Shown here: one piece after another, positions 41,283 to 57,635 of the stretch
Layout of the letters: the number at the start of each line of letters is the position of its first letter
Position numbering within the stretch: position 1 is the stretch's first letter
From: Candidatus Brocadia pituitae
Lineage (GTDB): Bacteria > Planctomycetota > Brocadiia > Brocadiales > Brocadiaceae
DNA: 64,000 nt
Direction of reading: 5' to 3'
NCBI GenBank assembly: GCA_017347445.1
Contig: AP021856.1
Coordinates: 3,666,613 to 3,730,612, forward strand
Notes under the pieces: generated by a model
Seen by the model: the letters and a program-made list of their open reading frames with translations, nothing else
Told to the model about the DNA's origin: nothing
The model's database searches: none
Program-made: the position numbers and the translations under genes

Positions 41283-42566
41283 ATGTTTAACGAGGTAAAA
41301 AGATTAAATACCAGACTTGCCGTCAGGCTTGCAATTACCGCTGGAATTGCCATGGGAATGGTTATGGTAGCACTTTTCGTTACCATAACGAGACCAAATA
41401 CCACTTCATTCTGTACAAAATGCCACAGCGACATTGTCTTCAATAACGCCTGCAAAAAACCATCAAAAGATATTGCCTGTATTGAGTGCCATACCCACAA
41501 CAATCGGGGTGTAGCACAGATGGCCGTTGAAATTCAGGATGAACATTGCACTGCTGAATCATGCCACCCGCTGAATAAATTAACTGCTCAGGCAGTGCAG
41601 TATAAAAAAAGTATCACCTTTCAGCATAAGACGCATATAGTCAGGTTCTCGAACAAGCTTAAACTGAAATGTACCTCGTGTCATGCCCACATCAGGAGTG
41701 AAAAACATTTTGAAACGGACGCAAGGACATGTGACACCTGCCATTTTATCAATACCACGAAACCTCTTTATACCCAAATTGGCAAATCCATATCTGATTG
41801 CACGCTGTGTCATAGTCATATCGAAAAGACAAAGGATATATACGGAAAGATTTTTCAGCATGAAACGTACGAAAAGAATGAAAAAATCTCTTGCTCCGCC
41901 TGCCATTTTGATACCATTCAGGGCAATGGAGGGGTTGATAAAAGGAGTTGTTATCAATGTCATACTGAGATTGCTGATTATTCTGAAAAGGTACCGGATA
42001 TGCATACCATTCATAGTGAAAAGCACAAGGTTGCCTGTACGTCGTGTCATGATTCTCTTTCCCATGGTTGGATCAAACCGGCCAACCCCGTCTCTGGAGA
42101 TGACCATCCTCAGCAGTCTGTTGCAACAGGGCACAAAGTGCAGGAATTGATTATGATGGGAATGGGTGGAGTGGGCATCAAGGGTGAACCTGATCCCATG
42201 TACCTTGCAACATTAAATTGTTCCGCATGTCATCAGGGCAAGCAACGGTTTGCCCATATTGAGCACACAGTGTGCAATGATTGCCACGGAAAAGGATTTG
42301 ACAGAATATTGGCGGAGCAGATACATTTCGTAACGTCTCAGATGCGATTGTTACGGAGATTGCTAGCCCAGACGAAAAGGCGCCACAACACGGACACGAG
42401 CCAGGTAATTCATGAGGCAGAGGTAAATTATCACCTCATCAGGGAAGACGGCAGTTCTGGCGCTCATAATATCAAGTATATAAAATATCTGTTAGGTTAT
42501 AGCATTACCAATTTGATGCACAGTAATTTCATTCGTTATGATTCCCCTCTAGAAAGAGGGGATTAA
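41283..42566 (+). CDS. Membrane-anchored multiheme cytochrome c, 11 heme motifs
   Basis: A 427-residue protein with one N-terminal transmembrane anchor (AGIAMGMVMVALFVTITRP). Eleven heme motifs follow: CTKCH, CIECH, the CX4CH motif CTAESCH, CTSCH, CDTCH, CTLCH, CSACH, CYQCH, CTSCH, CSACH and CNDCH. The anchor followed at once by a heme resembles NapC/NirT-type quinol dehydrogenases, but the count is much higher. The last ~10 residues (YDSPLERGD) are encoded by a dispersed repeat at 42540-42621 that supplies the stop. It lies 5 nt after the pentaheme gene. It may be an electron conduit from the b6-type core toward the compartment's periplasm-like side. Confidence 0.85.
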   Translation: MFNEVKRLNTRLAVRLAITAGIAMGMVMVALFVTITRPNTTSFCTKCHSDIVFNNACKKPSKDIACIECHTHNNRGVAQMAVEIQDEHCTAESCHPLNKLTAQAVQYKKSITFQHKTHIVRFSNKLKLKCTSCHAHIRSEKHFETDARTCDTCHFINTTKPLYTQIGKSISDCTLCHSHIEKTKDIYGKIFQHETYEKNEKISCSACHFDTIQGNGGVDKRSCYQCHTEIADYSEKVPDMHTIHSEKHKVACTSCHDSLSHGWIKPANPVSGDDHPQQSVATGHKVQELIMMGMGGVGIKGEPDPMYLATLNCSACHQGKQRFAHIEHTVCNDCHGKGFDRILAEQIHFVTSQMRLLRRLLAQTKRRHNTDTSQVIHEAEVNYHLIREDGSSGAHNIKYIKYLLGYSITNLMHSNFIRYDSPLERGD

Positions 42567-42621
42567 GGGGTGTGTAAATCGATCGTAACACACCCCCGGC
42601 CCCTCTTTTTAGAGGGGAGAT
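42540..42621. repeat. Composite palindromic repeat overlapping the 3' end of the 11-heme gene
   Basis: The unit reads CCCCTCTAGAAAGAGGGGAT (42544-42563), AGGGGTGTGT, a short spacer, ACACACCCC and CCCCTCTTTTTAGAGGGGAG (42601-42620). It contains two nested inverted repeats around a spacer (aaatcgatcgta). Its left edge encodes the last residues and TAA of the multiheme cytochrome. It belongs to the same family as 35809-35847. Confidence 0.8.
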
Positions 42622-42674
42622 TTAAAGTAGCTGCCAAAGGCAGCCTAATTCAAGACAAGGCGTGAAGTGACACC

Positions 42675-43430
42675 ATGATCAAATTTTATGTACGATTGAT
42701 GCTTTACTTAAGTATTGTTGCAGTGTCATCGATTGCCACGGGAAATGACCGATTCACCGTTAAACCAGACGATGTGCCGTTTCCTTCCGGTTCATGTACT
42801 GACAGATGTCACGTGAATTACCTGGCGTATTACACCGTGTACCAGGAAGAAATATTCAGACATGAATCTCACTCTCCCCGTCAGGGATTGGAATGTCATC
42901 AATGCCATAATAACGATGCTGTTCATACAAAAACCCATGGTGGACTGATGATACAAAAGAAAGACTGCTGGCTCTGCCACCACAAAAGTGATCAAGAAAC
43001 TGCCATCGGTTCCTTCTCAAAGAATCAGGAAATGTCTTTAGCATGTTTCCATTGCCATGCAGAAATAAAAGATTACCTAAAGGGAGCAATCCAGGGCATG
43101 GGGATAAAAATGCCCGATTGGATGTCTGCTGCAGTTTCCTGTACCGATTGCCATAAGCCGGAACCGGATGGGATTTCATTTAGAGCCGTACGTAATCACT
43201 GCATAGAGTGCCATAACGACGATTATGGGTTGTTACATGATGCATGGAAGGAGACACTCGATAAACAGATCAAACAAATCAACAAAAACGATAGCGGGAC
43301 ACAAAACACACGGAATCTCTTGAGACTCGTGCAATCATATGGCATGCATAATTTCCGGTTATCGCAAAAACTTTTAAAATCGATGGATATTACCCGTGAA
43401 GGGAAGAGACACGGAGAAGATGCTTTTTAA
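42675..43430 (+). CDS. Exported multiheme cytochrome c, five CXXCH plus one CX3CH
   Basis: A 251-residue exported cytochrome with a signal peptide (residues 1-22). The first motif is CTDRCH, a CX3CH variant, followed by CHQCH, CWLCH, CFHCH, CTDCH and CIECH. Many further His residues could act as distal ligands. The C-terminal ~60 residues are helical and heme-free (NLLRLVQSYGMHNFRLSQKL). It is the last cytochrome of the operon, and a hydrolase gene starts 3 nt downstream. Whether CX3CH holds a heme is untested; CX3CH and CX4CH motifs are accepted by some special lyases. Confidence 0.85.
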   Translation: MIKFYVRLMLYLSIVAVSSIATGNDRFTVKPDDVPFPSGSCTDRCHVNYLAYYTVYQEEIFRHESHSPRQGLECHQCHNNDAVHTKTHGGLMIQKKDCWLCHHKSDQETAIGSFSKNQEMSLACFHCHAEIKDYLKGAIQGMGIKMPDWMSAAVSCTDCHKPEPDGISFRAVRNHCIECHNDDYGLLHDAWKETLDKQIKQINKNDSGTQNTRNLLRLVQSYGMHNFRLSQKLLKSMDITREGKRHGEDAF

Positions 43431-47309: not shown

Positions 47310-47339
47310 TTGACATTAAACCTTATGCAGTATTAAATA
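47310..47339 (+). promoter_or_regulatory. Promoter driving the riboswitch leader
   Basis: A perfect -35 box TTGACA (47310-47315) is followed after 17-18 bp by TTAAAT/TAAATA (47333-47339), giving a start around 47345. That is only a few bases before the aptamer at 47352, as expected for a riboswitch leader. Confidence 0.6.
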
Positions 47340-47351
47340 TTAAAACCATCT

Positions 47352-47446
47352 CGATAAAGGTAAACCCTGAAAGATCAGGGGGCGCAAAGTAAAGGGTCTT
47401 AATTTTACAGGGAAGTAAGGATAAGAAAAGTCAGCCTTACTGCCGA
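47352..47446 (+). promoter_or_regulatory. GEMM-I (cyclic-di-GMP-I) type riboswitch aptamer
   Basis: The leader matches the GEMM consensus in order: AAAGGTAAACC, a P2 hairpin (CCCTGA-AAGA-TCAGGG), GGCGCAAAG with the intercalating A, GGGTCTTAA, then CAGCC and TGCCG. AGTAA after GCAAAG pairs perfectly with TTACT after CAGCC, where the consensus has AGCC and GGUU, so this pairing covaries. GG at the position corresponding to G20 favours c-di-GMP over cGAMP. The P2 loop is not a standard GNRA tetraloop. Its 3' strand is shared with an overlapping terminator (47434-47491), so ligand binding should turn the downstream glycosyltransferase on. Ligand identity is inferred. Confidence 0.8.
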
Positions 47447-47491
47447 AGATGTTTATGGTATTAAATATCTTTGCAGTAAGGCTTTTTATTT
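47434..47491 (+). terminator. Riboswitch-controlled intrinsic terminator
   Basis: GCCTTACTGC (47434-47443) pairs perfectly with GCAGTAAGGC (47473-47482), extended inside by AAGAT/ATCTT, and is followed by TTTTTATTT. The 5' arm overlaps the CAGCC-TTACT-GCC strand of the aptamer, so the two folds exclude each other. It lies 12 nt before the GT2 start. Confidence 0.88.
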
Positions 47492-47502
47492 CTATACCTC
47501 CT

Positions 47503-48969
47503 ATGAAAAAAAATCCTTTAGTTTCAGTGATTATCCCTTCATATAATTCCAGTCAACACCTCTTTCAATGTTTGGATGCTATCAAATCTTCAGATTACAC
47601 AAATTATGAAGTAATTGTTGTTGATGATGCATCAACTGATGAAAGCCCGAGAATTGCCTGTCAGTCGGGCGTACGTGTTATCCAGAGGGACAGGCAATCC
47701 GGCCCGGGCGCAGCACGAAATGATGGCGCACAGCACGCAAGGGGCAGCATCTATTTCTTTGTAGATTCAGATGTAGTCATAAAACCGGATTCCATTAGTT
47801 GTGTTATATCCAATTTCTTAAACAATCCACACGTTGGGGCCTTATTTGGTTCATACGACAATCAACCGGCAGCTACGAATTTCTGTTCGCAGTATAAAAA
47901 TCTTTTTCACCATTTTATCCACCAAACATCACATGAGGATGCCAATACCTTTTGGGCGGGATGCGGAGCAATCCGAAAAGAAGTTTTTCATGAAGTTGGC
48001 GGATTTGATATTGTGCATTATACAAAGCCATCCATTGAAGATATAGAACTTGGTCTTAGAATCAGCAAAAATGGGTATAAGATCCTGCTTGTAAAAGAGC
48101 TACAAGTAAAACATTTAAAAAAATGGGAACTTCGATCTTTGCTCTATACAGATATTTTTTGTCGTGCCGTTCCCTGGGCAAATTTAATCATTCAATCGCA
48201 GGAAATGCCAAAAGGCTTAAACTTTCAAAAAAGTCATTTGATCAGTTCGCTGTGTGCCGGGCTTTTGGTTGGATTGGGAATATTCTGTTTACTCGAATAT
48301 AAACTGTTTTCATTTATCCCAATGGGACCTCTTTATTATTATATTAAACTTTCGGGGATTGCCATTTTCCTCAGTCTTAATCTCGTTGTTTTTTACATGC
48401 GTATGTTTCGGCTCTTAGATAAAGGAAGGCATTTAAAGTATCTCTTGCCAACGCTGTTCCTTATCGTTTTTGGATTTGCACTTACCATCGGAATCTTTTC
48501 CTTTTTTAATCTCAAATTCCTTGCTTTTGTTCCCAATACCGCATTTTATTACTATCTAAAATTTGGAATTCTGATTGTGTTTCTCTTTTCTAGTTTTATT
48601 ATTTTTTATCTTAAAATACCTACCGTAAAAACCAAGAGTTGGCAATGGAACGTAATGATCCGGTGCCTTTTTGTTGTTACAGCAAGCGTTGTTGTTACCT
48701 TGTCCCTGATCGCATTTCGCAGTAATTTTGGATATAACTCAATACTTTCTTTGGCGGTCCTGTATTTTACATTTATTTTGATTGCCACAAATATTTTATT
48801 ACTTAACAGTCGATTGTATTGGTTTTTTTTCAATCTAAAAGGTTTAAAGTTTTTACTGTTAGTGATTTTCTTCAATGTAATTTATTATCTTTATAGCGGA
48901 GGGACCTTCGTAATTTGTTGGACGATTCAGTTCGGAAAAAAACTTCTAGCAGAACAAAAAGGTAATTGA
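47503..48969 (+). CDS. Family 2 glycosyltransferase with C-terminal membrane helices
   Basis: A 488-residue enzyme. The N-terminal GT-A domain (residues 1-240) has PLVSVIIPSYNSSQHLFQCL, VVDDASTDES, GPGAARNDGAQHARG and the DxD-like DSDV, plus the ED motif SIEDIELGLRI. About six transmembrane helices follow (250-480). Such proteins add sugars to lipid carriers or exopolysaccharides. I chose the ATG at 47503, after the terminator; the longer frame from 47449 overlaps the terminator arm. Ribosome-binding site is weak. A GEMM-type riboswitch and terminator lie directly upstream, so c-di-GMP probably controls it. A mutase-like flavoprotein follows 71 nt downstream. Confidence 0.88.
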   Translation: MKKNPLVSVIIPSYNSSQHLFQCLDAIKSSDYTNYEVIVVDDASTDESPRIACQSGVRVIQRDRQSGPGAARNDGAQHARGSIYFFVDSDVVIKPDSISCVISNFLNNPHVGALFGSYDNQPAATNFCSQYKNLFHHFIHQTSHEDANTFWAGCGAIRKEVFHEVGGFDIVHYTKPSIEDIELGLRISKNGYKILLVKELQVKHLKKWELRSLLYTDIFCRAVPWANLIIQSQEMPKGLNFQKSHLISSLCAGLLVGLGIFCLLEYKLFSFIPMGPLYYYIKLSGIAIFLSLNLVVFYMRMFRLLDKGRHLKYLLPTLFLIVFGFALTIGIFSFFNLKFLAFVPNTAFYYYLKFGILIVFLFSSFIIFYLKIPTVKTKSWQWNVMIRCLFVVTASVVVTLSLIAFRSNFGYNSILSLAVLYFTFILIATNILLLNSRLYWFFFNLKGLKFLLLVIFFNVIYYLYSGGTFVICWTIQFGKKLLAEQKGN

Positions 48970-49040: not shown

Positions 49041-50672
49041 ATGCAAAAAACAGATCTAAAAGCAATTATCTTTGGCGCCGGACCTGCGGGCTTGACATCC
49101 GCCTATGAGCTATTGGATAAAACAACGATAAAGCCTGTCGTGTATGAAAAGACACAAGAGATTGGCGGCATTTCCAGGACGGTTCATTACAAAGGAAATC
49201 GTATAGATATTGGAGGGCACCGTTTCTTTTCAAAATCCAGCAAAATCATGGAATGGTGGTGCAATATTTTGCCTTTACAGGGTTTTCGTACACGAGAAGA
49301 CATAATTTTAAAAAGGGATGTTCCGGTTTCATATGAGTCAAAATACAGAAAAATAAAAGACACGAAGATGGTAATAAAAAACCCACCTGACCCAGAGAAA
49401 GAAGATAGGGTCATGCTCTCTCGGGGCCGGATATCCAGGATTTTTTTTCTGCGAAAATTTTATGACTACCCAATTTCTATAAAATTGCAAACAATTAAAA
49501 ATCTGGGGCTCAGAAAAACAACAAAAATTATAGGGAGTTACTTACTCGTTAAACTATTTCCCAAAAAAGAGTTGAAGAGTTTGGAAGATTTTTTCATTTC
49601 ACGTTTTGGAAACGAACTTTATAGAGTATTCTTTAAAGATTATACAGAAAAGGTGTGGGGTGTTAGCTGTCAAATGATACATGCAAAATGGGGAATTCAA
49701 AGGGTAAAAGGACTTTCTGTTTCAAAATCAATAACACATGCAGTAAAAAATATTTTCGTGAAAACCAATACTATTTCCCCAAAAAAGACAGAAACGTCTC
49801 TTATCGGACGTTTTTTATATCCCAAATTCGGCCCTGGCCAGATGTGGGAAACTGTCGCAGAAATAATAAGTACCGAAGGGGGTACTGTCAAAACAAATCA
49901 TGAAATAACCAATATTTTACTAGAAGGAAATCGGGTTAAGAGCGTGAAAATCAGAGAGAATGCAAGCGGGCAAATAACCGAAGAGGAGGCTGATTACTTT
50001 TTCTCATCTATGCCGATAAAAGACTTGATAAGTCGGATAGAGCCTTCACCAGATGAAAATATAAAAAACATTGCTTCGAATCTTGTTTACAGAGATTTTA
50101 TTATAGCAGGCATATTAGTCTCGGAATTAAAAGTCAAAAATACAACAAACATGAGAACCGTCAACAATATTATTCCGGATAACTGGATATATATACAGGA
50201 AAAAGATGTACATTTAGGAAGAATCCAGATATTCAACAATTGGAGTCCTTATATGGTTGCCCACAAAAATGCTATTTGGTTAGGGGCGGAATATTTCTGT
50301 ACAGAAGGAGATGAATTATGGTCTCTGTCCGACAATGATTTTCTTCAATTAGCAATAAACGAGTTAAAAAAAATTGGTTTTATTGACACAGGCAGCGTAA
50401 AAGACGGAGGTGTGATTCGAGTGCCAAAGGCCTATCCATCCTATATTGGTAGTTATGAAAAGATACGTGAGGTTATTGAATATTTGAATACCATTGAAAA
50501 TTTGTTCCTTATTGGGCGGAATGGGATGCATCGTTACAACAATCAGGACCATTCCATGATGTCGGCAATGGTTGCGGTAGAAAACATTGTGAAAGGAATA
50601 AAGACAAAGGATAATTTGTGGAAGATTAATATCGAAGAAGAGTATCATGAAGAAATGAGTAAAGGTAAGTAA
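49041..50672 (+). CDS. FAD-dependent oxidoreductase, UDP-galactopyranose-mutase/amine-oxidase-like
   Basis: A 543-residue flavoprotein. The FAD-binding start is [18 protein letters not shown], then [20 protein letters not shown] and HRFFSKS, matching the family of NAD(P)/FAD-dependent proteins often seen in polysaccharide clusters. The C-terminal FAD-contact segment reads [20 protein letters not shown]. No signal peptide is present, so it is cytosolic. It follows the riboswitch-controlled GT2 gene on the same strand, which suggests a role in making an unusual sugar or polymer. Whether it is a real mutase is not clear; several residues typical of Glf are not recognisable. Confidence 0.82.
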
Positions 50673-52727: not shown

Positions 52728-55700
52728 TTATGGGGATTTGGCATCCATTCGTATGCCTTTTTGCAAGAGACGGTCTATATCAGCGGATGATAAAGGCTGG
52801 CTGTAAAGGTAGCCCTGAATATGATTACAATGGAGTTCACGGAGGAAGTCGGCCTGTTCTTTATTTTCAACACCCTCGGCAACGATCTTCAGTTTAAGGC
52901 TTTTGGCGACTGCAATGATAGCGGTGACAATTGCTGCGTCATCCGGATTTGTCGTAATATCTTGCACAAAGGATCGGTCAATTTTGATAGTGTCTACGGG
53001 AAAACGCTTCAGATAGCTCAGAGAAGAGTATTCGGTACCAAAATCATCAATAGAAAAGAGCACACCAACAGACTTTAACTCCCGGAGCACAGCGAGAATA
53101 GCCATGTCGTTTTGCATAACAATGCCTTCCGTAAGTTCCAGTTCCAGATACTTCGGATCAAGGCACGTCTCCTGTAATACACGGGTAATCATACTCACAA
53201 GATTCTGTTGTTTAAACTGGCGTACGGAAAGATTGACGGTAATACGGAAGGTAGGAAACCCTGCGTCGTGCCATGCCCTGGTTTGAGCACAGGCGGTCTT
53301 CAGTACCCATTCACCAATAAGGACAATAAGACCTGTTTCTTCAGCAATGGGAATGAATTTGGTCGGGTAAAGCATTCCCAAGGTGGGGTGCTGCCAGCGT
53401 ATTAACGCTTCCATACTCATAATCTGACCAGTATCCAGATTTACCAGTGGTTGGTAATAGACGATCAACTCGCCTTTCGTCAGCGCCTTGCGCAGATCAT
53501 TCTCCAGCATCAGCCTTTCAAGGTTATTTATATTCATGTCCTCCCTGTAAAACTTGAAGGCATTCCCTCCCTGCTCTTTGGCATGGTACATGGCAATATC
53601 GGCCTTTTTAATCAGATTTTCCATGTCATTTGCATCGAACGGATAGATGGCAATACCGATGCTAGCCGTTACGTGCAATTCAAGCCCATCAAGGTGAAAG
53701 GCGGCAGACAGGACACGGAGAATTTTTTGCGCTATAAGAGCAGCGTCCTGCGGATAGAGAATGTCTGAGATAATGAAGATAAATTCATCTCCCCCTAATC
53801 GTGACACGGTATCTCCTTCACGGATGCAATCTTTCAGACGATCTGCAAGGGCCTTCAGCAACAGATCGCCAAAGGCATGCCCTAACGTATCATTAATCGT
53901 TTTAAACCGGTCCAGATCGAGGAATATTACCGATGTCAGTCGTTTGTTTCGGTTTGCATGGATCACTTCCTGACGCAGGCGGTCAGCAAACAAAATACGG
54001 TTAGGCAGATTTGTTAATGTGTCGTAATGTGCCATATAGACAATCTGCTTTTCTGCCTCCTTTTTGTCCGTAATATCCTCATGTATCGCAACGAAGTGGC
54101 GCGTTTTTCCCTTCAGGTCCAGCAGCGGGGTAATAGTCTGGTTCACGGTATAAAGACCGCCGTCCTTGTGGCGGTTTATGACCTCTCCACGAAAGACATT
54201 CCCTGCAAGGATCGTTTGCCATACCTGCTGATAGTATGCAGCATCATGTTTGCCTGATTTGAACAGACGCGGGGTCAGGCCACAGGCCTCGTCTGATGTG
54301 TATCCACTCAGTTTGGCAAAAGCAGCGTTAACCCACGTAATTCGTCCCACGCTATCGGTAATAAATACAGCATTGGCTACCGATGCCATTGCGGCGCTAT
54401 GCAGGCGCAATTGCTGCTGATCTCTTGCAATCAGCAAGGTTATACTGATGCGAGCAGCCAGATTTTCCAGCAAGTGAATGGTTGTTGCATCAAAGGCATC
54501 TGTTTTTTGGTCGTACAAATTTAGCGTACCAATCACCTTGCCTTCAGAAAATAAGGGGACTGCAAGGAAGGATTGCAATCCATACTGACAAGCGCGTTCC
54601 CGGCATCGCTGAAAGACAGCCTCTTGCGCATCGAGGGCACTCCGCGTCTTTCCGGTGCGAATGGCAAGGCCGATGAAGCATTTATGATCAGGAACTTCAT
54701 TCCATCGGGCATTGAAATCTTTAAGGTAATTTCCATGGGTGCCGGCTTGTGCTGAAATGCTAACCGTGCCATCTGCTTCTTTCATGCCGAGCCAGACCAG
54801 GGGATAGGCAAAAATATCAGTAAGACACGTGCAAACATACGGTAAGATAAAATCCGGCGGTTGTCCCTGCAGCACAAATTGATCAATTTCGTGAAATAAA
54901 GCGTCAATAACTTGAGTTTGTTTCAGATGAGTAATATCAGCAAGCACTCTCATGACACCCTTCACATTGCCCTGCCCATCACGCAGTGGCGCTGTGGAGA
55001 GGCTGATGTCAACCGGAGAACCATCTTGTTTTTGTCTGCGCACCTCAACGCCGGTAAACGACTCGCCTTGCAATACCCTTTCCCGCAATGCACGAAACTC
55101 TTCTTGTTTATCATGAGGAACAATGGGAAGAAAGTGACCGAGTACCTCCCGCTCTTTCCAGCCAAACAGGTGTTCTGCAGCTTGATTCCACATCGTAACA
55201 TTTCCCTGTAAATCGAGGGCAATGATAGAAAGAGGCGAGGCTTGAATCAATGCCTGAAGCACTTGATTCGTTTCTCTCAACGACTCTTCGGCTTGCTTGC
55301 GCATGCTGATGTCGGTTGCTATTTCAAGCCGGACAATACAGCCATCTACCCAGGTAATAGCCCTGTCAGAAATTGCGTACCATCGCCCGTCCAGGGTATT
55401 CTGAAATTCCCATGAGTATATGCCTGCAGGATTTCCATTGGCATCTAAAAGTTTATCGTTAGTGCAAAAATTGCATTGTTTAACCTGGTTCGCCTGAAAC
55501 GTTTCCCAACAGATTTTGCCGGTTACGTTTCCAACAAGATCTTTCAGATATTTGTTTGCATAAAGGATTTCGTGGGTTTTCAAGTCCGCAACATATACCA
55601 CAGCATTCAGCCCATCCAAAACGGAAGTAAGTCGTTTATGGGCTTCCTGTAAAGCTTCCTCCGCACGCCGGCGTTCTGTGACGTCCCTGGCGATGCCAAT

Positions 55701-57542
55701 GGTTCTCAGAACGTTTCCGTTTCCGTCCCTTAACTGAAAATTCCTGTATTCACATACGATCCCCGTATCTTTAAACCTGAGCTCAAATTGCAGGCTTTCA
55801 CCTCCAACAGTTCTCGTATGGAAATCGATCGCCTTTTTTAAGTTTTCTTCGTCAAAAAGAGGTGAAAATGGTTTTCCTATGAATTCTTCGGGTTTATGGC
55901 CCGTAAGTTTTTCAAAGATCTTGTTTACATATAAAATATTGCCTTGCGTATCGCAAATGTATGCGAGGTCCCTTATTTCAGAGAACAACAATTGAAATAT
56001 CTTCAATTCTTCATGCATCTTTTCATTTTCTGTAACGTCAACGAAAGCTACCCCCACACAATTATTTGAAAGGGGAAACGCTTTGACGGACAGAATCGCA
56101 CTGGAATTGACCTTGTCGGTAAAGTGCTCGTCTTTCAGTCTTTTTACCTTACCAGAACGGACGACCTCGGCATAGATCTGTGGAACTTCTGTTCCCATGA
56201 GATTGGGAAAACACTCTGTCATGGTCTTTCCGGTGAGATCTCCCAGTGCCACCCCGGTACATTGAGTTGCTGCGGTATTTGCGGCAATAAGTTTATAGGT
56301 TTTTATATCATCAACATTCTCTAGCTGCCAGACAACCATGCCTATTTGTACATTATCCAGGATTTCCACATAGAGCCGGATACGCTCTTCCGCCCGCTTG
56401 CGTTCGGTAATGTCATGAAAAATATTCAGCACGACCTTTTTCTTGCCCCAGGCAATAACACTGGCATGGAGTTCGGCCGGTATTTTATGCCCCATTTTAT
56501 GGCGGAGAGAGAGTTCTTTGGTAAAGGCAGTACCTATGTGAATGCAATCTTCAAGCATCTTCGTATACGATGTTGCTTCTTCTTCAGGGCAAAGTTGTGT
56601 ATAATGCATACCGATGAGTTCTTTTCGAGAATATCCAAGCAGGGCTTCTGCACCTTGATTTACATCAATAATTATCCCTGATTCTGCATCGGTAAGGGAA
56701 ATAGACCCATGAGCAGTTTCGATAAGTTTCCGGTATGTTGCTTCAATATCCTGTAATGCCCCATCATCCAGTTTGAGTTCGGTAATATTCTGCGCCGTAC
56801 CATAGATATGGATAACACGACCCTGTGCATCTCCCCATACCGGCTGGGCGTAATCACGCAACCAGAGCATCTCGCCGTTTTTTGTGATAATACGAAATTC
56901 ACTGATCTTCGACTGGCCCGAAAGCAGACAACTCCGGTGCTGAAGAAAAAGAGCTTTGTCTTCCGGACAGACAAGACTATACCAACCGTCATGCCCTTTT
57001 ATCTCTTCAAGGGTATATCCGGTGATTGGAGTAAAGGCATCGGTTACACATTCACATAAGAATGCACCATTGGATTCAACACGCACCGTGTATGCATAGT
57101 CAGAAATAGTTTCCGTGATATCATACCGCCCTTGAGAAACTTTCGCCCGATTCCCTGATCTGTTATGTCCGTTATCCAGACTCACATCCCTCAGGCTCTT
57201 CTTCAATGCCATAGGCAAGCGATGCATTTTTCTTTTCAGAATATAGTCGCTCAGGCCGGATTTCATTCCCTCCACGGCGATTTCTTCGTTGCCATGATCG
57301 GTAAGCATGATTACCGGCACGGAAGGAAAGCGTTCTTTCACCGACCGGAGAATCCATAATCCATCAGTCCAGTCAAGGCGATAGTCGGTAATCACAGCAT
57401 CAAAGGCGCCTTTCCCGATAACCTCATCAAAATCCTCCCGCTTATGTATTTCCAGAAACTCTAAGCCATAAAAGTCCTTTTGGAAATCCTGCTTGATCCG
57501 CACGCGATCATCCTGGTTGTTATCAATAATCAGCAATTTCAT
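52728..57542 (-). CDS. Large REC-PAS-GAF-GGDEF-EAL c-di-GMP turnover protein
   Basis: A 1604-residue cytosolic sensor enzyme. It has a receiver (1-118; phospho-Asp53 in ITDYRL), about six PAS domains with PAC parts (145-910), a GAF domain (about 915-1080), another PAS (about 1085-1170), GGDEF (about 1175-1345) and EAL (1350-1604). RLGGDEF is intact and preceded by the inhibitory RxxD (REGD) five residues upstream. EALIRW, IDDFGTEYSSL and the loop residues of an active phosphodiesterase are present, so both activities are possible. One PAS carries a Cys cluster (QCNFC). I chose the ATG at 57542, after GGAGAGG. It could supply or remove c-di-GMP for the riboswitch at 47.4 kb. Confidence 0.93.
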   Translation of the reverse strand: MKLLIIDNNQDDRVRIKQDFQKDFYGLEFLEIHKREDFDEVIGKGAFDAVITDYRLDWTDGLWILRSVKERFPSVPVIMLTDHGNEEIAVEGMKSGLSDYILKRKMHRLPMALKKSLRDVSLDNGHNRSGNRAKVSQGRYDITETISDYAYTVRVESNGAFLCECVTDAFTPITGYTLEEIKGHDGWYSLVCPEDKALFLQHRSCLLSGQSKISEFRIITKNGEMLWLRDYAQPVWGDAQGRVIHIYGTAQNITELKLDDGALQDIEATYRKLIETAHGSISLTDAESGIIIDVNQGAEALLGYSRKELIGMHYTQLCPEEEATSYTKMLEDCIHIGTAFTKELSLRHKMGHKIPAELHASVIAWGKKKVVLNIFHDITERKRAEERIRLYVEILDNVQIGMVVWQLENVDDIKTYKLIAANTAATQCTGVALGDLTGKTMTECFPNLMGTEVPQIYAEVVRSGKVKRLKDEHFTDKVNSSAILSVKAFPLSNNCVGVAFVDVTENEKMHEELKIFQLLFSEIRDLAYICDTQGNILYVNKIFEKLTGHKPEEFIGKPFSPLFDEENLKKAIDFHTRTVGGESLQFELRFKDTGIVCEYRNFQLRDGNGNVLRTIGIARDVTERRRAEEALQEAHKRLTSVLDGLNAVVYVADLKTHEILYANKYLKDLVGNVTGKICWETFQANQVKQCNFCTNDKLLDANGNPAGIYSWEFQNTLDGRWYAISDRAITWVDGCIVRLEIATDISMRKQAEESLRETNQVLQALIQASPLSIIALDLQGNVTMWNQAAEHLFGWKEREVLGHFLPIVPHDKQEEFRALRERVLQGESFTGVEVRRQKQDGSPVDISLSTAPLRDGQGNVKGVMRVLADITHLKQTQVIDALFHEIDQFVLQGQPPDFILPYVCTCLTDIFAYPLVWLGMKEADGTVSISAQAGTHGNYLKDFNARWNEVPDHKCFIGLAIRTGKTRSALDAQEAVFQRCRERACQYGLQSFLAVPLFSEGKVIGTLNLYDQKTDAFDATTIHLLENLAARISITLLIARDQQQLRLHSAAMASVANAVFITDSVGRITWVNAAFAKLSGYTSDEACGLTPRLFKSGKHDAAYYQQVWQTILAGNVFRGEVINRHKDGGLYTVNQTITPLLDLKGKTRHFVAIHEDITDKKEAEKQIVYMAHYDTLTNLPNRILFADRLRQEVIHANRNKRLTSVIFLDLDRFKTINDTLGHAFGDLLLKALADRLKDCIREGDTVSRLGGDEFIFIISDILYPQDAALIAQKILRVLSAAFHLDGLELHVTASIGIAIYPFDANDMENLIKKADIAMYHAKEQGGNAFKFYREDMNINNLERLMLENDLRKALTKGELIVYYQPLVNLDTGQIMSMEALIRWQHPTLGMLYPTKFIPIAEETGLIVLIGEWVLKTACAQTRAWHDAGFPTFRITVNLSVRQFKQQNLVSMITRVLQETCLDPKYLELELTEGIVMQNDMAILAVLRELKSVGVLFSIDDFGTEYSSLSYLKRFPVDTIKIDRSFVQDITTNPDDAAIVTAIIAVAKSLKLKIVAEGVENKEQADFLRELHCNHIQGYLYSQPLSSADIDRLLQKGIRMDAKSP

Positions 57543-57635
57543 GGTGCCTCTCCATGCCAGAGATTTTCTTTCTGGCAGAATACAGGGTATATCAGCATAC
57601 AGGTAATCTTCTCCGTTAAAATTGAGAACCACTTA

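Follow-up and report, generated by a model that had tools for sequence, protein, structure and literature searches.

The RNA encoded at 47310–47491 of the window (the whole 64-kb stretch of DNA analysed) is very probably a class I c-di-GMP riboswitch that turns transcription ON, and belongs to a set of about 45 cassettes of this kind distributed over the genome. It joins an aptamer of a known family to a terminator that overlaps it, is conserved and covaries across its copies, and stands before a glycosyltransferase gene; from these features we infer its ligand, its switching direction and the common regulation of the set. The host, whose genome contains hydrazine synthase alpha (PF18582) twice, is an anammox bacterium of the family Brocadiaceae and probably a Brocadia. 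The features are collected in Table 1; the coordinates proposed in an initial annotation fit the element.

Table 1. Features of the riboswitch cassette and of the genes following it, in window coordinates
Feature	Position	Strand	Basis
-35 promoter element TTGACA	47310..47315	+	perfect; kept in paralogous cassette L014
Candidate -10 element TTAAAT, 17-nt spacer, weak	47333..47338	+	putative, read from sequence
P1 5' strand region (CAUCU-CG), drawn paired with CG-A-AGAUG at about 47444-47451	47347..47356	+	sequence
c-di-GMP-I (GEMM-I) aptamer	47349..47447	+	RF01051, 60.2 bits, E 2.9e-9
G20 equivalent, ligand-specificity base of c-di-GMP type	47359	+	RF01051 alignment; positions 18-24 read
P1b hairpin CCCUGA-AAGA-UCAGGG	47365..47380	+	compensatory changes, 38 copies
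A47 equivalent (not G, hence not the c-di-GMP-I-GGC variant)	47386	+	sequence and alignment
P2/P3 arm: 5' strand GUAA-A-GGGUCUU, 3' strand CAGCCUUAC	47389..47439	+	alignment, sibling comparison
Terminator 5' arm GCCTTACTGC, identical with aptamer 3' strand and ending at the C92 equivalent, 47443	47434..47443	+	
Terminator 3' arm GCAGTAAGGC	47473..47482	+	sequence, folding
T-run TTTTTATTT	47483..47491	+	sequence
GT2 glycosyltransferase, likely start ATG 47503	47503..48969	+	PF00535, E 4.5e-30
PRK07208-family FAD/NAD(P)-binding protein	49041..50672	+	NF005546, 803 bits

The entire window was compared with 4227 Rfam families using cmscan. The aptamer matches RF01051 (c-di-GMP-I, or GEMM-I) over the full length of the model (positions 1–87 of 87), well above the gathering cut-off of 35 bits, so that the covariance model strongly supports the GEMM-I assignment made earlier from the letters alone. 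The sole other match above gathering in the window is a tRNA. The P1b hairpin, the P2 arm, the conserved junction and the ligand bases equivalent to G20, A47 and C92 are all present. In the P1 helix, one inner pair covaries across the copies and the outer pairs are weakly supported. The AGTAA/TTACT pairing that had been pointed out is real: the lower P2 helix is formed by GUAA (47389–47392) and UUAC, and the same UUAC pairs with GUAA in the 3' arm of the terminator. The RNA differs from typical RF01051 members in this GUAA/UUAC helix, which is fixed and linked to the terminator, and in its long P3 loop, which varies in length and sequence. Judged by its sequence, the RNA upstream of the GT2 operon is a genuine class I c-di-GMP riboswitch, of a class and a mechanism already known.

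A related family, RF03167 (c-di-GMP-I-GGC), wins the clan competition for many of the sibling copies in the genome. However, its defining base is G at the A47 site (GACGCGAA), whereas A stands there in the window RNA as in the siblings (GACGCAAA); hence the RF03167 assignment should not be taken to mean a change of ligand, and we rejected it as the right family for the siblings.

The terminator arms are complementary over all 10 bp and are followed by TTTTT, and a second helix continues within the loop. The overlap with the 3' strand of the aptamer is exact, as had been claimed. The hairpin folds with −28.7 kcal/mol. For the full transcript, tertiary contacts and the ligand being left out of the calculation, the energy is −47.9 kcal/mol with the terminator versus −34.3 kcal/mol with P1b and P2 of the aptamer enforced; therefore the terminator is predicted to win at equilibrium when no ligand is bound. 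Since the 5' arm of the terminator is the aptamer's own 3' strand, including C92, the two structures are mutually exclusive, and hence a transcriptional ON switch is predicted.

The closest known system is the pilM riboswitch of G. metallireducens, a transcriptional ON switch of the GEMM-Ib type that responds to cGAMP, in which pairing of the ligand-contacting cytosine by the terminator abolishes binding (PMC9262584). The window RNA shares with it the aptamer fold, the use of the aptamer 3' strand by the terminator, the predicted ON logic and the capture of the ligand-pairing cytosine, C75 in pilM and the C92 equivalent 47443 here. As the same arrangement makes pilM an ON switch (PMC9262584), ON is the expected direction here as well, and by this analogy the ON prediction of the initial annotation agrees with a biochemically studied case. 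The differences are the ligand, cGAMP for pilM while G20 of the window RNA indicates c-di-GMP, the phylum of the host, and the platform sequence, which is near-identical in about 37 copies of one genome.

In the proposed mechanism, transcription would start probably just 5' of P1. Without ligand, GCCUUACUGC (47434–47443) would pair with GCAGUAAGGC (47473–47482) and RNA polymerase would halt at the T-run. Binding of c-di-GMP between G20, A47 and C92 would keep the 47434–47443 strand in P2 and at C92; the terminator would be blocked, and the operon of the GT2 and flavoprotein genes would be transcribed. Through about 45 such cassettes, c-di-GMP would turn on many cell-surface, exopolysaccharide and signalling genes. 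In the promoter proposed earlier, the −35 element is perfect, but the −10 element is weak, and a scan for consensus promoters at 9/12 found none for the window cassette.

The most likely start codon, ATG 47503, is common to the GT2 gene and its paralogue; an in-frame ATG at 47449 falls inside the terminator. The flavoprotein gene, 71 nt past the GT2 gene, probably belongs to the same operon. Its product shows a distant likeness to UDP-galactopyranose mutase (TIGR00031, 38.7 bits over residues 161–223), and together with the PF00535 match of the first gene this bears out the earlier description of a GT2/mutase-like pair. No Shine-Dalgarno sequence is visible before ATG 47503 (47488–47502); TACCTCCT lies immediately 5' of this ATG, and TCTTCCT takes this place in the paralogue. 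The paralogous GT2 gene itself (L014, C1:2636096 onward) is preceded by nearly the same promoter and riboswitch, and ends after about 146 codons at the gene of an IS630-like transposase. Ten further genomes of the genus contain no close relative of the GT2 protein (E ≤ 1e-60), and thus the pairing of the RNA with this gene is not conserved. The nearest named relative, from Ca. Jettenia ecosi, is 71% identical, with no Rfam match within 3 kb on either side of its gene. Elsewhere in the window, a large PAS/GGDEF/EAL protein is encoded at 52728–57632 on the opposite strand, which, like the 16 GGDEF domains counted in the genome, speaks for the proposed c-di-GMP switch; two multihaem cytochrome c genes (Cytochrome_C7 / c3-type) are situated at 41283–43430, upstream of a TPR gene.

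The complete genome (4.08 Mb) yields 45 RF01051 matches, 44 of them above the cut-off. The same 3' strand is seen in 39 of these 44 copies, and a matching terminator arm is recognisable in 37, with pairing in 33–37 of the 37 at each position. A pattern search for the 3' strand gave 41 sites in the genome, while the reversed control pattern gave none. Three of the 41 are outside the RF01051 list, two of them with the 5' half of the aptamer (838369 and 3050049) and one without it (3012550); the total number of cassettes is therefore 45 to 48. In 38 copies, pairing at P1b positions 3, 4 and 6 is far above that in shuffles, at most 2 in 1000 (0.2%) of which reach the observed level, and P2 position 2 covaries likewise; since the copies are related, these counts are not probabilities. 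In the copy at 3305259, three elements have changed together: GUAA of the P2 5' strand is GGAA, UUAC of the shared strand is UUCC, and the terminator arm reads GGAA.

The borders of the cassette are sharp. Among 34 copies, the 3' strand has a mean pairwise identity of 92% and the compared 5' half, beginning 10 nt inside it, one of 81–93%; the values fall to 29–35% in the 60 nt upstream and to 26–29% from 10 nt past the T-run onward. That is, the similarity ends at the aptamer and at the T-run, and the flanks are unrelated. BLAST matches to the window cassette across the genus mostly start near query position 53 and end at 188–192, the same two borders. For the window copy, L014 alone clearly departs from this pattern: the promoter, the RNA and the GT2 start are all shared with it (88%). 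The sequences would be most simply read as a self-contained regulatory cassette that is copied or constrained as a whole, although old copies under strong purifying selection would give the same picture as copying.

The genes downstream of the sibling copies fit the GEMM theme of environment, membranes and motility. They include a pseudopilin (GspH) operon, an autotransporter, surface proteins with PKD, Big_5 and Kelch repeats, an N-acetylmuramoyl amidase, trypsin-like proteins, caspase/PEGA proteins, two sigma-54 activators and a dCache gene with a PAS-GGDEF gene behind it. A polysaccharide-biosynthesis protein (Polysacc_synt_2) and a cytochrome c' are also found, and several copies are followed just by a transposase or have no near sense gene.

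The ligand could in principle be another dinucleotide. Many cGAMP sensors are known among the GEMM-I RNAs of Geobacter (PMC8835794), and three sibling aptamers (C1:2823848, 128046 and 3564238) have A at position 20, so that sensing of 3',3'-cGAMP by a GEMM-Ib aptamer with the same ON mechanism has to be weighed for the window RNA. We consider this very unlikely, since the window copy has G20 and not the A typical of GEMM-Ib. G20-bearing cGAMP sensors may exist, so G20 is not an absolute exclusion. The cyclases point in the same direction as G20. Hypr cyclases, which make cGAMP, have Ser at a position of the GGDEF domain that is otherwise Asp; all 16 GGDEF domains of the genome keep the Asp, and no Hypr-type domain is found among them. 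Together with G20, the absence of Hypr-type domains favours c-di-GMP over cGAMP, as far as sequence can tell. The three A20 siblings (L031, L039 and L047, in the order given above), with the base typical of cGAMP sensors, raised the possibility of a cGAMP network, which we rejected, no Hypr-type cyclase being found in the genome.

An OFF switch, in which the ligand favours termination, is known among GEMM-I RNAs, e.g. Cd1 of C. difficile (PMC9262584). However, the aptamer and the terminator of Cd1 can coexist, whereas the terminator 5' arm in the window uses up P2 and C92, as in pilM, which makes an OFF switch highly improbable here. It is also conceivable that the window cassette is a decayed copy of an element multiplied about the genome, which has kept both folds and lost regulation. 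The high copy number, the unrelated flanks, copies with no near sense gene (e.g. 3551804) and the truncation of the L014 paralogue by the transposase are in line with this. On the other hand, in the window copy all ligand-contact bases are retained, the terminator is perfect and the GT2 frame, which starts about 15 nt past the T-run, is intact, and the double pairing of P2 and the terminator is kept in most siblings; loss of regulation is thus very unlikely. We retain the c-di-GMP ON switch as the preferred description of the window RNA.

All 33 Brocadiaceae genomes searched contain RF01051 matches, 20–56 in the host's genus and 1–28 in the others. In a sample of the phylum, scored for at most ten candidates per genome, 132 of 392 genomes have a match, and most of the matching genomes beyond the Brocadiaceae carry one or a few. 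For comparison, in 394 genomes sampled from the phylum to which a Desulfobacterales genome belongs, the maximum is 24; genomes reaching ten scored candidates were rescored there, and the sample may not hold the richest Geobacter species. To our knowledge, the published high is about 30 copies, in Geobacter uraniireducens. A literature search on GEMM counts per genome and on riboswitches in anammox bacteria gave nothing pertinent among the papers searched, although a report elsewhere is possible.

What deserves attention here is the size and uniformity of the c-di-GMP switch set in anammox bacteria; the single element is itself ordinary and well supported. With a set so unusually large, one signal molecule may control much of the cell surface. 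A wider reading is possible, and we offer it tentatively: the host genus would hold the largest known single-class riboswitch regulon, its richest species having about 45–56 near-identical, self-contained c-di-GMP ON cassettes in each genome, which would have spread to unrelated genes as units the size of the RNA and would switch cell-surface, exopolysaccharide and signalling genes together, possibly as the programme by which anammox granules aggregate. In anammox bacteria, which grow in granules and biofilms, little is known about how surface and matrix genes are controlled. With about 45 c-di-GMP switches, mostly of a single ON design, the genome provides a readable list of c-di-GMP targets. 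We know of no ready genetics for these bacteria, and c-di-GMP control in them becomes approachable by in vitro RNA assays despite this. The near-identical copies with unrelated flanks also raise the question of the way in which a regulatory RNA some 140 nt long is copied to new promoters.

Several siblings have an individual arrangement. L009 consists of tandem c-di-GMP-I aptamers (C1:2195217–2195293 and 2195100–2195184) without an overlapping terminator, situated before a predicted secreted protein; in L012 (C1:2295159) the aptamer is single and the surrounding DNA is 97% identical to that of L009. The aptamer 5' half and 3' strand of L034 (C1:836106) are about 500 nt apart, and the terminator is still recognisable. 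A cassette of the same type as that in the window (L013, C1:3665360–3665458) lies about 1.2 kb before the window start and precedes the gene of a predicted exported protein that matches TPR weakly. Finally, the P3 loops of many siblings carry palindromic repeats (CCGCTTAAACCGTTCAAACGGC), e.g. at C1:2012674, 2440959 and 3541803. Exact matches to this palindrome in the genome are all in riboswitches, and some looser ones are found elsewhere (C1:1133421, 448049 and 1123431).
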